In this document: in pieces, positions 56,954 to 62,826 of the stretch | Layout of the letters: every line of letters starts with the position of its first letter | Position numbering within the stretch: position 1 is the stretch's first letter | Assembly (NCBI GenBank): GCA_024279865.1 | Contig: JAJRRC010000039.1 | Location: 1-64,000 of the forward strand | Reading direction: 5' to 3' | Length of the DNA stretch: 64,000 bases | Origin: Planctomycetota bacterium | GTDB lineage: Bacteria > Planctomycetota > Phycisphaerae > Phycisphaerales > Phycisphaeraceae | Notes under the pieces: model-generated | What the model was told of the DNA's origin: nothing | Database searches by the model: none | Seen by the model: the letters and a program-made list of their open reading frames with translations, nothing else | Translations under genes and position numbers: made by a program

Positions 56954-57034
56954 AACAAATGGGATGGGAGGCGATGCTGGGGAAATGCTCGTGAAAAATC
57001 CCCGTGGGGGAAAACAAGTATGCTGGGGTTAAAC

Positions 57035-57053
57035 GTGCATCACACGCTCTAGA
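57035..57053. repeat. 19-base repeat GTGCATCACACGCTCTAGA, copy 2
   Basis: Identical to 22055-22073. It covers the last codon and stop of the E2-like gene. Confidence 0.55.
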
Positions 57054-57678
57054 CCAACTCGCCCACCACAGCCACGTTGCGGCTATCAATCGGCAAACGC
57101 TTGATATTTAAATCCGACCACATCGCGGCTTGGGCATTTAAAGGACTCTTAATGTTGTAAGCCTGGTAAGCAATCATCTCGCCGATGCGAATAATCAACA
57201 AAGACAAATCTTCGCCAGCGGTCCAATGATCGCCAATGCAAATGGCACTCTCATCGATGTTCGGATGGAAAATCGGCGTGAGCATCCGACACTGTGGCGG
57301 CAAACGGGGATAGTCCTTGACCATCTTGATCTCAACTTCGTGCAACGCGCATTGCACGGGTTCATTGTCCCGATTCAAACGCAAGCCTCGAACTTGATAC
57401 TGAACGCGATACACCTCGGCAGGATCGCCGGTGTGAGCCACCACGCGAATCAACGGCGTATTCACAAACGCATCCATCACGGCTTGCTGGTCGGCAATCA
57501 ACCGGCGTGTCCGCATGGGAACCGACAGTAAATCCGATTGGCCAGATGACACCTCAACAGAGGTCGGCATCGGGGCCATGATCGCCCCCCCACACGTCTT
57601 GCATTTCCCGTTACGCCCAGCATAACTGTCAGGCACAGAAAACGGCGTTCCACAATGATCACAAGAAAACTGAATCAT
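57049..57678 (-). CDS. E2-like ubiquitin-conjugating protein with N-terminal zinc ribbon
   Basis: A 209-residue protein. Residues 1-32 form a zinc ribbon (Cys6, Cys9, Cys26, Cys29). Residues ~55-195 follow the UBC fold: helix RRLIADQQAVMDAF, beta meander, the Y-P-R-L-P-P turn, the HPN motif (F-H-P-N-I, 138-140), and a cysteine eight residues after it (Cys147 in A-I-C-I-G-D-H-W-T), the place of the E2 nucleophile; then P-L-N-A-Q-A-A. The spacing and the tryptophan after the cysteine are those of eukaryotic E2s. The start overlaps the stop of the FHA/RING gene as ATGA. It is the last gene of the ubiquitin-like operon and should accept the modifier from the E1. Confidence 0.88.
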   Translation of the reverse strand: MIQFSCDHCGTPFSVPDSYAGRNGKCKTCGGAIMAPMPTSVEVSSGQSDLLSVPMRTRRLIADQQAVMDAFVNTPLIRVVAHTGDPAEVYRVQYQVRGLRLNRDNEPVQCALHEVEIKMVKDYPRLPPQCRMLTPIFHPNIDESAICIGDHWTAGEDLSLLIIRIGEMIAYQAYNIKSPLNAQAAMWSDLNIKRLPIDSRNVAVVGELV

Positions 57679-58910
57679 TCGAATCTACCTCCAAAACTGA
57701 TCCAGCCAAGCTGCGATAAATACTGGAATCCAAACCATCCCCCCACCGTCCCGACCAAACAAAGAACCATGCCAAGAACCATCGCAACGCGAGAAAATTG
57801 TGACCTGCGTTGTAACGCCATCCCAAACATCATCACCACAAACAACAGTGCATTGGGAATACCCGCGGTAAACGGACCCACCAACAGACCAAACGAGGCT
57901 GCGGCGACAAACATCCAATCCCAAGGCACACGGGCACTGCGTGAATCAATTTTTTGACGCGGCTGACGACGACGCACCACGGCTGGCTCGACCACCGACT
58001 CTTTGGGAACCAAGCATCCCACATCCTGACAGCCATAGGTCGAACAGCCTTCCATTTCGTACCAACAATCTTCGTGATACACCCCGTCGCAACTGGAACA
58101 AGTCTTCTTGGCCATGTTCGACAACACAGGCGTTTGGCACACGCTGCACTCACCGATCTGTGTGGGTAACTGAGGCGTGACCACAGCCACGTCATCACCA
58201 TCGTCACACCATTCGATCAGATCGCTGGCATGATTGGATTTTTCAGGGGCAAGTTCAGGCTGAGGTGGCACTTCAAGCGTAGCGGTTTGCGTTTGAATCT
58301 GAGTCTGCATTTGCACATCTGAATCGTCCAAAGTTTCAGCGGGCATGGAAATACCGACGGCAGTTTTTTCTGAATCATGAAGCGGCCCAGATAACTGCGA
58401 ATGCTCTAACGTGGGCGCGGGCGCTTCAGCTCGTTCGCAAGCCTCAGCAATCACTGCTGAACGGGCAGGAATAATCAACCTTGTCTGACAGGACAAACAT
58501 CGCCCGGCCGAGCCGATCCGCAACGGCTTGGATCGCAGCACTGATTTACATTTCGGACAGCGAAAAACCACGTCCCGCGTCGCAGGATCGCGGGGGACAA
58601 TACGCTCAATGCCATGAGGCAATTCATCGAGCTGTCGAAAGCTCAGCGTCGCGCGGCCGATGTGAATCAAATCGCCTGGAAGCAATTCATGACGATCCAT
58701 GATCGCCTCCTGATTCACAAACGTGCCATTACGACTACCGAGGTCTTCAATCCACCAACGACCATCCTGCTCAACGACCAGTGAATGGATGCGTGAAACA
58801 CCCTGGATTTTCAGATCAATATCCAAACCTGTGACACGTCCGATGACGGCCAACTCGTTGAGGACCAGTCCGCGACTGTCTTTTCCGTTTTCAATTACAA
58901 GGACAGGCAT
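57675..58910 (-). CDS. FHA / RING-like zinc finger membrane protein (candidate E3)
   Basis: A 411-residue protein. Residues 1-95 are an FHA domain (V-I-G-R, S-R-I-H-S, S-R-N-G-T-F-V-N) that would bind phosphothreonine. A zinc ribbon follows (Cys118, Cys121, Cys138, Cys141), then a ~100-residue low-complexity linker, then a cross-brace pattern C-x2-C (255, 258), C-x2-C (271, 274), H-x2-C (279, 282), C-x4-C (289, 294), as in RING fingers. Two to three transmembrane helices (~330-398) end the protein. The RING pattern in an operon with E1 and E2 makes it the likely ligase, fixed to the membrane. Confidence 0.82.
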   Translation of the reverse strand: MPVLVIENGKDSRGLVLNELAVIGRVTGLDIDLKIQGVSRIHSLVVEQDGRWWIEDLGSRNGTFVNQEAIMDRHELLPGDLIHIGRATLSFRQLDELPHGIERIVPRDPATRDVVFRCPKCKSVLRSKPLRIGSAGRCLSCQTRLIIPARSAVIAEACERAEAPAPTLEHSQLSGPLHDSEKTAVGISMPAETLDDSDVQMQTQIQTQTATLEVPPQPELAPEKSNHASDLIEWCDDGDDVAVVTPQLPTQIGECSVCQTPVLSNMAKKTCSSCDGVYHEDCWYEMEGCSTYGCQDVGCLVPKESVVEPAVVRRRQPRQKIDSRSARVPWDWMFVAAASFGLLVGPFTAGIPNALLFVVMMFGMALQRRSQFSRVAMVLGMVLCLVGTVGGWFGFQYLSQLGWISFGGRFE

Positions 58911-58936
58911 GCTGTCACCTCTCGATTCATTTAAAG

Positions 58937-60202
58937 TCAGCTTAACGCAACGGATTGCTTACGTTCTTGGAATTCAAAGATAGACGCTCCGATTTGGATC
59001 TCATCGCCACCATGCAAACGCACACGTTCGACGGGTTCGCCGTTGACATAGGTTTGTGGCGTTTCGTTGAGATCTTCAATTTCGTATCTGCCGTTCACCA
59101 CATGGATGGCTGCATGGTGATCGCTGACCTGGGGATCTTTAAAGAGATAAATTTCACAAACAGGCGAACTCCCCAAGAAGGTGGGATTGCGATACACGAT
59201 GAATTGCTTGCCGGTGATAACACCGCCGGTGACCTTGAGCCAACCGGACTTGGCTGCGGATTCGAGCAAGCCTGTGGTCAGACCTGCAAGACAGCCAATG
59301 GCAACAAACGCCAACAAACGGCTCATGGCAGCACTTTGCAGCCAGAGGTCCACCGGGTCAAACAACAGCCCGCCGAGGAACCCACCAATGGCTCCACCAA
59401 GGATGCCAAGGATTAATTTCTTACGGCTCTTCATGACCACCCCCGACGCCACCGTCAGGAACATGCCAAACACCGACCAGACGACGGCCCGAGCGACCAT
59501 CTGTCGCATGAGACTGGCTTCGAGCAAACCGCCGCCGAGCAGATGATAAATTCGATTGATGAACAGCCCCACAATCGCAGCCCCCAACAGGGCGATGCCG
59601 ATGGCAACTGCGCCATTGGTCACCACACCTCGCCGATTGCGTGACATCAGTGGATCAGCCACTGCCAAGCAGACGGCAAACATCACGCCGATGATGGCGT
59701 ACCAGAGAAAACGATGCACAAAGTTTACGATTAAATCCTGTCCAACCCGTTGGTTTACCGCGTCTTGCTGTTGGTCCATGCTCAGCGTCAGATCACCTAG
59801 GATCTGGGCATAAGGGTTGTCTGCATAGTCTGCATAGAGCGTCGCCAACTTGGCTTCTGCTTCAAATTCCAACAAGTTGCCGTTGTCCAAACTTTGGAGA
59901 ATGTACAAGCGTTGTTGTTCAAGTTCTTGCATCTGCATGTAGCGATTGGGAATGATCTGGGTAAAGGCTTCACTGATCCCCCACGCGGCCAATCCGCCGA
60001 GCAGGCCGAACAAGGCCATGTAGACAATCGCGTTGTAGAAAAACTTGCTTTTACCGGGCTTGACCACCGGCGGACCGTCGACACCATGTTGATTGACATA
60101 ATGGGCGTGCGCTTTTTCAAGTGCTGCGGAGTGTTCGAGTTTTTTCTCCACCGCAGGACTGTGCAAGTCCTCAATTGTAATTGTAATTTTTTCTTCGGCC
60201 AT
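58937..60202 (-). CDS. Multi-pass membrane protein with C-terminal FHA domain
   Basis: A 421-residue protein with a cytoplasmic N-terminal tail (1-52), about seven transmembrane helices between ~53 and ~320, many Gly-rich (L-G-G-A-I-G-G-F-L-G-G-L-L), and a C-terminal FHA domain (R-N-P-T-F-L-G-S, D-P-Q-V-S-D-H-H-A-A-I, T-Y-V-N-G). The segment between helices 1 and 2 is a ~90-residue helical domain. It may recruit phosphorylated proteins to the conjugation machinery. GGAG precedes the ATG. Its place between JAMM and RING genes ties it to the system. Confidence 0.8.
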   Translation of the reverse strand: MAEEKITITIEDLHSPAVEKKLEHSAALEKAHAHYVNQHGVDGPPVVKPGKSKFFYNAIVYMALFGLLGGLAAWGISEAFTQIIPNRYMQMQELEQQRLYILQSLDNGNLLEFEAEAKLATLYADYADNPYAQILGDLTLSMDQQQDAVNQRVGQDLIVNFVHRFLWYAIIGVMFAVCLAVADPLMSRNRRGVVTNGAVAIGIALLGAAIVGLFINRIYHLLGGGLLEASLMRQMVARAVVWSVFGMFLTVASGVVMKSRKKLILGILGGAIGGFLGGLLFDPVDLWLQSAAMSRLLAFVAIGCLAGLTTGLLESAAKSGWLKVTGGVITGKQFIVYRNPTFLGSSPVCEIYLFKDPQVSDHHAAIHVVNGRYEIEDLNETPQTYVNGEPVERVRLHGGDEIQIGASIFEFQERKQSVALS

Positions 60203-60285
60203 CGGCCATACTCCGGTTCATCCCTCTCGGGCATTCAAAAAAAACTCAGATTCTTTTCTTTCCACATATCTTCAACGAACAATCC

Positions 60286-60864
60286 TTAGCCGTCATACAT
60301 CACCATGGGCCACACCACGAGCCAGCCCACCGCCACGACAAAAATAGCAACCATCACCGCGAGTAAGACACTCAAACGGTTTTGCCACTGACGTAATTTT
60401 TCAATTTTTTGAAGCTTCATATCCTTGCGTTGCTCACGCGTATCATCTTCGACTGCATAGTCCGTCTGACAGACGGCCCCTTGATCCCAGCCAAACAGGC
60501 CCCGTTCCTCACGAACAGGGTCATAGACATAGGCGATTTGCCAAGGCAAATTAAAAAACTGTTCGTGAATGAACATATCCATTTCAGACAGAAAAATGCC
60601 AAACCCTGGATGGGTGTGATACCAGCCGACAATTTTCTGGTCGGGATATTGTTCATCCATGGTCTGCTGAATATGGGTCCAGGTATCGGCGGTAAACGTG
60701 ACCGCGCCTGCCTGATGCGTGGCGTGACGACCTTCGATCACTGCCTGGGCACAGGTCACGTCATTGCGAACTTGTCCCACGAACACGCCACAAACTTCGA
60801 CGTGCGAATTATCGCGGCCGAAGGATTCAATCGCATCAAGCACAGATTGACGAATTACGACCAT
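60286..60864 (-). CDS. JAMM/MPN+ metalloprotease with C-terminal membrane anchor (candidate deconjugase)
   Basis: A 192-residue protein. The JAMM zinc site is complete: Glu23 (V-E-V-C-G-V-F-V-G), His83 and His85 with Ser93 and Asp96 (H-T-H-P-G-F-G-I-F-L-S-E-M-D). After a basic, coiled linker (145-163) a single hydrophobic helix (~164-186) ends in W-P-M-V-M-Y-D-G, so it is a tail-anchored protein with its protease in the cytosol. Its first ten bases overlap the E1 gene. It should cut isopeptide bonds or mature the modifier. Confidence 0.9.
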   Translation of the reverse strand: MVVIRQSVLDAIESFGRDNSHVEVCGVFVGQVRNDVTCAQAVIEGRHATHQAGAVTFTADTWTHIQQTMDEQYPDQKIVGWYHTHPGFGIFLSEMDMFIHEQFFNLPWQIAYVYDPVREERGLFGWDQGAVCQTDYAVEDDTREQRKDMKLQKIEKLRQWQNRLSVLLAVMVAIFVVAVGWLVVWPMVMYDG

Positions 60865-62099
60865 TCGATCTGCTCCTGTGTTTGAACCAAAGAGCCAAGC
60901 ACCAAAGGCGCATCCCCGGTCAATTCAAACCCCACACTTCGCCGCCCTCCAGAAGCCTCCCCGGCCATGCCTCTGGCCACGACAATATCAAACGCAGGCA
61001 CACCAATTGAGGCCAGTGTTCGATTGGCAAAAGGCTCATCGCCACGAATTTTGAAAAAGGTTTTCACCTCGCGTAATTCATGCCCACAAGCAGAACATGC
61101 AGCATCGGCTTCGGTTACTTTGCCAAGCGAGGTGAACCATTCTTCTTCGTGATGACACTTGGGACAGACGAGGCTTTGGAGCATTTCACGGGCCAGCTCC
61201 AGTTCAACATTTTCGCCGAGTAATTTTTTTGCGCGAGCGATCAACTGGGCCGCAGTGATGTCAGCAACCCCTTCGTCGAGGCTGATGATTTCATCGAGCG
61301 TATCATGACTGTAGCATTCTTCTTTGCGTTGGTAGGCCACGGTGTACGCTTCGGTGGTCAGGCCGTTGAACATCCATCCATTGCCTTGGATGCTTTGCAT
61401 GCCATGCAAAAGTTTGACGGCTTCTTGAGCTTGGACCCCTGCGATGATGGCACTGATGGTGGGCGTGGTGGGTGTTTTGCCTTGGGTCATTTGGCTACGG
61501 CTAAGCAGATTGCACGACCGTCGCATTTGCAAGAGCTTCCAGTCCATTTCGGACATGGTGCATTCATAACACGGGCCAGGCGGTGCAAAGACCCGCACCA
61601 AACCTTGAATTTGTTCAATCGCGCCATCGACCCAGGGACGATTCACTTTGTAGCAAGCTCGATTGATGGTGAGCCTTGCTTCGCGGTTATCCAGTCCGCC
61701 GAGGATGACATCCGCCCAGCGATAAACGCCCAAGCCAAGGTCATGAACAATATTGCCACAAAACGGTTGCACACGGATATCGGGATAGATATCTTTGGCA
61801 GCTTTTGCTGCGACTTGGGCTTTGGGTTGGCCGTTGTTTTTTTCCCGGAACAGGACTGAGCGTGACAAGTTAGAATTTTCGACATGATCCATGTCTGCCA
61901 CGAGGACTTGGCCTACGCCTAGCAGTGCGAGGTTTTTGACCAGTTCATTGCCCAGCGCACCGGCTCCGACCACCAGCACATTGGCAGAGGATAGCCGTGA
62001 CTGATCCCACCAACTGATCAGTTTGAATCGATCAAACCGACCATCTGCCGAGGCTTCGGTGTCGGCATGTGAAATTGTAACGGAGGCTTGCTGACCCAT
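60855..62099 (-). CDS. E1-like activating enzyme (ThiF/MoeB fold) with C-terminal zinc ribbon
   Basis: A 414-residue protein. The adenylation domain has V-V-G-A-G-A-L-G-N-E (45-51), D-M-D-H-V-E-N-S-N-L-S-R-S-V-L-F, G-Q-P-K-A and P-T-T-P-T-I-S-A-I-I-A-G. Cys196 in R-R-S-C-N-L-L is a candidate for the thioester cysteine. C-Y-E-C (177-180) is the first half of the usual zinc site. After residue ~300 comes an added module: zinc ribbon C-P-K-C (312-315) with C-S-A-C (335-338) and a ~70-residue beta domain. The extra module distinguishes it from MoeB and ThiF. It lies 32 bases after the modifier gene. Confidence 0.9.
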   Translation of the reverse strand: MGQQASVTISHADTEASADGRFDRFKLISWWDQSRLSSANVLVVGAGALGNELVKNLALLGVGQVLVADMDHVENSNLSRSVLFREKNNGQPKAQVAAKAAKDIYPDIRVQPFCGNIVHDLGLGVYRWADVILGGLDNREARLTINRACYKVNRPWVDGAIEQIQGLVRVFAPPGPCYECTMSEMDWKLLQMRRSCNLLSRSQMTQGKTPTTPTISAIIAGVQAQEAVKLLHGMQSIQGNGWMFNGLTTEAYTVAYQRKEECYSHDTLDEIISLDEGVADITAAQLIARAKKLLGENVELELAREMLQSLVCPKCHHEEEWFTSLGKVTEADAACSACGHELREVKTFFKIRGDEPFANRTLASIGVPAFDIVVARGMAGEASGGRRSVGFELTGDAPLVLGSLVQTQEQIEWS

Positions 62100-62131
62100 G
62101 TTCTCTACTGACCCTCTTCATCTGTGAGTAA

Positions 62132-62401
62132 TTAACCGGCCGTGATTTCTGGCTGCAATCGCAAGACATCACCTTCATTCACACCTGCGTCGTCAAACGA
62201 CTGGCCGTCAAGCAGTTGTCTGCCTGAAGCTTTGTGGTGGAATTTATAACTTAAAGGTTGGCCATCTGGCGCGTACTGAGGCATGCTCATACGATCGAGC
62301 AGCACCGCGACAATCCGGCTAATCGGCGCATCAGATGGTAATTCCACATCTTGCCGTTTGTTACCAGTGGCGTCCCATACTTGAACTGTCATCGTCGCCA
62401 T
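62132..62401 (-). CDS. Ubiquitin-like modifier (YukD/EsaB-like beta-grasp)
   Basis: An 89-residue beta-grasp protein: strand M-T-V-Q-V-W-D-A-T-G, strand D-V-E-L-P-S-D-A-P, helix ISRIVAVLLDRMSMP, strand L-S-Y-K-F-H-H-K-A-S-G-R-Q-L, then S-F-D-D-A-G-V-N-E-G-D-V-L-R-L-Q-P-E. It ends in E-I-T-A-G with a C-terminal glycine and no tail beyond it, so it needs no processing to be activated. GGGAG precedes the ATG. It opens the operon and is the probable substrate of the E1. Confidence 0.88.
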   Translation of the reverse strand: MATMTVQVWDATGNKRQDVELPSDAPISRIVAVLLDRMSMPQYAPDGQPLSYKFHHKASGRQLLDGQSFDDAGVNEGDVLRLQPEITAG

Positions 62402-62695: not shown

Positions 62696-62826
62696 AAGCT
62701 CCCCCGGTTCCCCCGGAAGTGTTCCTCGGTTTTTCCCGGGGGAACCGGGGGAACCGGGGGAACCGGGGGAGCCGGGGGAGCCGGGGGAGCTTCTGAAACT
62801 TCCGAGGGGAACTTCCGGGGGGGGGC
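62696..62826. repeat. C/G-rich tandem repeat block with the poly-G motif
   Basis: AGAAGCTCCCCCGGTTCCCC and the downstream tract of about seven nine-base units GGGGGAACC/GGGGGAGCC (62739-62788), which can fold back on the first part, then ACTTCCGAGGGG and ACTTCCGGGGGGGGG (62811-62825). It fills the gap between the modifier operon and fabI. Confidence 0.7.

Follow-up and report, generated by a model that had tools for sequence, protein, structure and literature searches.

The window analysed here is a stretch of 64,000 nucleotides from a Planctomycetota bacterium (assembly GCA_024279865.1, contig JAJRRC010000039.1, positions 1 to 64,000). Six overlapping or closely spaced genes run along its minus strand from 62401 to 57049, and encode a ubiquitin-like modifier (Ubl), an E1, a JAMM protease, a protein with six transmembrane (TM) segments and an FHA domain (6TM-FHA), a protein combining FHA, RING-like and TM regions (FHA-RING-TM), and an E2 (Table 1). 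The RING and E2 genes share an ATGA at 57675–57678, the E1 and JAMM genes overlap by ten bases (60855–60864), and the remaining gaps are 26, 32 and 83 bases. A preliminary description of this DNA had proposed these six genes with their overlaps and gaps, and read them as a full set of Ubl, E1, E2, RING and JAMM; all the open reading frames lie at the coordinates it gave, the families are matched, and the set is kept as a unit in relatives. The profile hidden Markov model searches that it called for gave Pfam matches above the curated cut-offs for YukD, ThiF, JAB, FHA (twice) and UQ_con, and a weak one for the RING of the window protein. The Ubl, E1, E2, RING and JAB genes are adjacent and co-directional, as in RING-containing prokaryotic ubiquitin-like operons. 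The families, residues, operon conservation, modifier tails and predicted membrane topology reported below come from sequence and structure comparison.

Table 1. Genes and other features of the operon region, in the order of transcription.
Feature	Position in window	Strand	Evidence
UBL: YukD-family beta-grasp modifier of 89 amino acids, C-terminus ...QPEITAG, first operon gene	62132..62401	-	PF08817, 1.6e-11
E1: ThiF/UBA3-like adenylating enzyme, candidate catalytic Cys196	60855..62099	-	PF00899, 1.2e-53
JAMM metalloprotease with a single C-terminal membrane helix (166–184)	60286..60864	-	PF01398, 1.1e-12; hydropathy
6TM-FHA: six-segment membrane protein with an FHA domain at its C-terminus	58937..60202	-	PF00498, 3.3e-16; TM scan; alignments
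FHA-RING-TM, candidate E3	57675..58910	-	PF00498, 2.5e-15; Prok-RING_1 weak here, above cut-off in orthologues
E2: N-terminal MJ0042-type zinc ribbon (1–35) and UBC fold	57049..57678	-	PF00179, 9.4e-11; AlphaFold2 (AF2) model; fold matches
Terminator-like hairpin with T-run, about 37 bases past the E2 stop	56999..57012	-	Consensus match only

The distribution survey covers the Planctomycetota. E2 matches were counted only over about residues 55–205, since the zinc ribbon (residues 1–50) inflates profile searches across the order and the phylum. Among 101 genomes (that of the window and 100 relatives), six have an E2 above the cut-off, the window's own included; all belong to its family, and all carry the same six genes in identical order. 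A single-sequence scan of genome contigs returned UBA7800 only. In the phylum sample, annotated with profiles built from close relatives, the order UBL, E1, JAMM, 6TM-FHA, one or more RING genes, E2 is found in all 17 complete loci, which come from 15 genomes in seven GTDB families; the conserved unit expected by the preliminary description is thus present. In the E1 tree they group as a single supported clade of 17 (support 95/98) that includes a long basal branch. Among close relatives, the ratio of nonsynonymous to synonymous substitution rates (dN/dS) is about 0.02–0.10 in each of the six genes, although dS is close to saturation. Since 15 genomes share these genes and their order under such dN/dS values, the operon is more than a chance arrangement.

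In profile searches the best matches of the E1 are eukaryotic, with UBA7/UBA1/UBA3 at 2.7e-48 compared to 3e-36 for ThiF, and its structure alignment to UBA3 shows 37 percent identity across 225–228 structurally aligned residues. Residues 18–396 align with SAE2 over 302 residues (Z 28.4, root-mean-square deviation (rmsd) 3.5) and with UBA1/UBA7 at Z 26–27 and rmsd 4.4–5.7; through residues 267–396, the alignment carries on to the ubiquitin-fold domain (UFD) end of SAE2, UBA1 and UBA7. Cys196 and three CxxC pairs (C177/180, C312/315, C335/338) are invariant in 22 E1 sequences. These comparisons make Cys196 a candidate catalytic residue, and the C-terminus a candidate UFD-like region. The abstract of Burroughs et al. 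(2011) reportedly proposes that YukD-like Ubls are conjugated and that E1s of this kind have a UFD.

A UBC fold in the E2 gene product, on which the preliminary description had staked its reading, is recovered by Pfam, profile search and structure alignment. The AF2 model has a pLDDT (predicted local distance difference test) of 90.7, its residues 53–196 align with UBC enzymes at Z about 13 and rmsd about 3 Å, and the PDB fold matches listed are UBC enzymes. The HPN motif (H138-P-N140) and a following cysteine, within the sequence HPN...CIGDHW, are present as first described, except that Cys147 lies seven residues, not eight, after Asn140. H138, N140, C147 and W152 are invariant in 29 E2 sequences, and the profile alignment, from which the active-site position of Cys147 is taken, sets it in the catalytic cysteine column of known E2s. 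Arg56, Arg58 and Arg59 are located where the first E2 helix begins, the region through which eukaryotic E2s bind the E1 UFD.

The beta-grasp modifier ending in glycine was correctly recognized at the outset. The window Ubl is a single domain without a tail, its last residue being Gly89. In 36 of the 37 Ubls found, an Ala-Gly pair closes the Ubl domain in place of the C-terminal Gly-Gly of canonical ubiquitin, and PEITAG is invariant among those of the FHA/RING clade. Among 35 Ubls laid out for tail comparison, which were chosen for having the Ala-Gly, 13 end at the glycine while 22 run on into unconserved tails, variable in sequence and length and mostly of 1 to 11 residues. Because the Ala-Gly is followed either by a stop or by a tail of varying length and sequence, the alignments show the pattern seen in ubiquitin precursors whose C-terminus is processed. 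It bears on whether the Ubl is instead a non-conjugating YukD-type component of type VII secretion, or a sulfur carrier of the ThiS/MoaD kind, as its YukD/EccD family matches and the ThiF-like E1 might suggest. The removable-looking tails after the terminal Ala-Gly, the invariant Cys196 and UFD-like C-terminus of the E1, and the E2, RING and JAMM genes sharing the operon all speak against such a role, and I regard it as scarcely credible. As for type VII secretion itself, a YukD role was rejected on the ground that the six operon-bearing genomes of the family have no WXG100 match; EssC was not searched for.

The JAMM motif, H-x-H-x7-S-x2-D in the preliminary description, corresponds to H83, H85, S93 and D96 and is invariant in 8 of 8 sequences, and Rpn11 is the closest solved structure (5e-15). 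Membrane helices are predicted in the JAMM, 6TM-FHA and RING proteins of the window and of the relatives checked, in agreement with the membrane anchoring of three members proposed earlier, and the TM scan corrects the preliminary description in giving the 6TM-FHA protein six predicted membrane segments. Hydropathy and charge, from which the orientations are derived, suggest a tail-anchored JAMM with a cytosolic catalytic domain, a six-TM protein with a cytosolic FHA domain, and a RING protein with both FHA and RING in the cytosol. Three membrane-anchored components, the protease among them, would also suit an Atg8-like system, in which the Ubl is attached to a lipid or membrane anchor and not to proteins. 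However, the E2 is of the canonical UBC type with HPN, not Atg3-like, and the operon has a RING protein, which leaves lipid attachment very improbable.

The two FHA proteins differ in their binding residues. In all 20 sequences of the 6TM-FHA protein, G-[SCGA]-[SA]-x stands where the canonical domain has Gly-Arg, and because of this absence phosphothreonine binding by this domain is unlikely, as far as residues can tell; its candidacy as a phosphate reader was dropped on the same ground. The FHA domain fused to the RING retains GR, SRxH and SRNG in 6 of 6 sequences, the fusion occurring only in the sub-clade of the window. The phosphorylation-dependent tagging suggested earlier is therefore supported only in part, by the residues of the FHA-RING fusion and not by those of the phylum-wide 6TM-FHA.

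The FHA-RING-TM protein comprises an N-terminal canonical FHA domain, a zinc ribbon, a RING-like C4HC3 domain (253–297) and two C-terminal membrane helices. Its eight ligands (C255, C258, C271, C274, H279, C282, C289 and C294) do not vary among the eight closest operons. Prokaryotic RINGs are C4HC3 domains with a longer last spacing, a pattern that the window RING fits (PMC11354881). RING orthologues in other genomes exceed the Prok-RING_1 (PF14446) cut-off; 15 genomes were searched, giving nine such domains, all within these operons, while six family members included for comparison as genomes lacking the E2 gave none. Every complete operon in the clade includes a RING, with up to three copies. 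From its sequence, the RING protein is a candidate E3.

It is possible that the RING-like domain is a zinc or membrane-interaction module, with conjugation proceeding through E1 and E2 only, or with the six-TM protein positioning the E2. The window RING, at 14.9 bits, is a weak match well below the Prok-RING_1 cut-off of 29.1; its relatives also match C1/PHD-like domains weakly, and related treble-clef domains can serve other roles. The E2 has Arg125 and Ala154-Gly155 at the canonical RING-contact positions, where RING-binding eukaryotic E2s have Phe and Pro-Ala (positions defined from UbcH5b), so that an E2–RING contact would differ. In addition, a second planctomycete system (L094, L098–L104) consists of E1, UBL, E2 and JAMM genes with no RING or FHA by the profiles used; its Ubl ends in TSTFVAG and its E2 retains a WSPA motif. 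Against this stand the invariance of the eight ligands, the presence of the RING in every complete operon, the restriction of above-cut-off RINGs to these operons among the genomes checked, and the definition of the Prok-RING_1 family itself from operons of such type. Dispensing with the E3 is, on balance, unlikely.

Taken together, these comparisons point to a conjugation cascade of the ubiquitin type that assembles at the inner membrane, which I consider probable. The weak RING score, the alternative roles of treble-clef domains and the altered RING-contact positions of the E2 weigh against it, as do the lack of phosphate-binding residues in the 6TM-FHA protein, a Ubl terminus of Ala-Gly instead of Gly-Gly, a patchy distribution (E2 above cut-off in 6 of 101 genomes), and the absence of a trypsin protein (see below) from the window's clade. 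I infer the reactions, E3 activity, targets and role as follows. The JAMM protease would trim Ubl precursors where a tail is present, the window Ubl being already mature at Gly89. The E1 would adenylate Gly89, form a thioester on Cys196 and pass the Ubl to Cys147 of the E2, whose basic N-terminal helix (R56, R58, R59) may dock on the UFD-like C-terminal region of the E1. The membrane-anchored FHA-RING protein would then recruit the charged E2 and direct the Ubl onto a target in or near the membrane, with its FHA domain perhaps selecting phosphorylated targets or partners. The 6TM-FHA protein may form the structural membrane core of the complex, and the membrane-anchored JAMM would take the tag off again.

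Sister operons hint at what such a cascade may be for. In several families a gene for a RING-TM-trypsin protein precedes the E2 gene, and a DUF2752 membrane protein follows it; RING, membrane helices and a trypsin-like protease are found in one protein at L085:10086-11450, L087:9924-11231 and L096:8218-9534 (other families), the trypsin part probably being periplasmic. Since sister operons add this protease, the most likely role would be the regulation or quality control of envelope proteins, or else signalling. A tentative extension of this, doubtful as a whole, is an E3 embedded in the inner membrane that links the tagging of cytosolic proteins' side of the envelope by Ubl to proteolysis within it, with phosphorylation-gated E3 recruitment through FHA-RING in the window's sub-clade. 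A search for the proteasome family was uninformative, because PF00227 also covers HslV.

Bacterial E1, E2 and JAMM sets are often defensive, and an antiphage operon of the Bil, Bub or type II CBASS kind, with phage or defence proteins as the targets of tagging by the Ubl or E2, was considered; PADLOC gives weak matches to its E1-E2, JAB and BilD models. Yet it gives nil for the Ubl and a marginal 0.024 for the E2, and no CD-NTase, effector or CapW/CapH/CapK-type regulator is seen within the operon. Bil likewise has Ubl, E1, E2 and JAMM in one operon, but its BilA comprises two Ubl domains and its BilB has a CEHH motif (PMC11354881), whereas the window has a single Ubl domain of 89 amino acids, an HPN...CIGDHW E2, RING and FHA partners and a housekeeping context. 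Cap2/Cap3 of type II CBASS, and Bub, share the E1, E2 and JAB chemistry; in the window, E1 and E2 are separate genes rather than the Cap2 E1-E2 fusion that accompanies a CD-NTase, and the operon has its own Ubl and a RING. The flanking genes are housekeeping ones in the window (fabI, a Gfo/Idh oxidoreductase, a Na:Ala symporter and rplT), with TetR, dapB and cytidylyltransferase genes in relatives, and purifying selection is strong and gene order fixed. Viral contigs yielded no confirmed E2 relative, E1 matches in phage records are of the ThiF/MoeB type, and plasmids yielded one distant match only, in a cyanobacterium; a mobile or defence origin was rejected on these grounds, and defence as a function appears improbable. 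The cyanobacterial plasmid Crinalium pCRI9333.03 carries an E1, two tandem Ubl-like small proteins, an E2 and a JAMM (L128:5995-9472).

Among the closest known systems is the ubiquitin operon of Caldiarchaeum subterraneum, with pro-ubiquitin, E1, E2, a small RING E3 and an Rpn11-like JAMM that trims pro-ubiquitin, reconstituted with RING E3 and JAMM trimming (PMC5654768; PMC6043591). The window operon differs in having a YukD-type Ubl with a mature Ala-Gly terminus (Gly-Gly there), as well as membrane anchors and FHA domains. According to a 2014 review (PMC4197634) citing Burroughs, Iyer and Aravind 2011 (Mol Biosyst 7:2261), Actinobacteria, Planctomycetes and Acidobacteria possess relatives of the archaeal operon. 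The planctomycete kind, with ubiquitin-like, E1, E2 and RING genes, is accordingly not new, having been predicted by comparative genomics about 2011, and the window operon is a lineage variant of it, with an FHA-RING fusion and no trypsin gene. The systems predicted in 2011 likewise unite Ubl, E1, E2, RING and JAB in a single operon, and the window operon would differ from them in its FHA-RING fusion and invariant 6TM-FHA partner. YukD-like Ubls and TM-bearing RINGs, as in the window operon, are reportedly also features of the 2011 systems.

RING-dependent ubiquitin-type conjugation has been demonstrated in eukaryotes and some archaea; no native bacterial demonstration, and no experimental work on the planctomycete operon type, was found in the literature searched. 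A compact, phylum-wide set of UBA3/UBA1-like E1, UBC E2, Rpn11-like JAMM and RING makes a true bacterial E1-E2-RING cascade, together with its membrane targets, directly testable, and this operon type bears on the origin of the eukaryotic E1-E2-RING arrangement.

Several further loci deserve mention. Two of the six family genomes with an E2 above the cut-off (G030, G044) also contain another, diverged operon, in which the RING protein lacks FHA and the E2 lacks the zinc ribbon. In G030, matches to the 6TM-FHA gene are split between two overlapping frames (L018:6929-8153), suggesting a frameshift or sequence error. One operon (L107:8023-13874) has two each of E2-like and JAMM genes, alongside single E1, UBL and RING genes. 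E2-like orphans without the catalytic cysteine (IYLEEHW, LHVDLRW) occur at L091:9365-10165, L092:9488-10294 and L093:9171-9887, with no other ubiquitin-system genes detected nearby, and a cysteine-intact E2 lies close to a contig end at L078:9346-9852, the other operon genes missing upstream. The adjoining DUF2752 proteins lie at L085:8715-9227, L087:8648-9199 and L011:16789-17202. Terminator-like consensus matches such as the hairpin of Table 1 are not above chance in number in the region. Between fabI and the operon, the window has a tandem array of a 9-base unit, CCGGGGGAA, in 5.9 copies (62736–62788). Past the window on the same contig lies a tandem pair of flagellin-like genes, about 500 residues long (L010:12966-16411).

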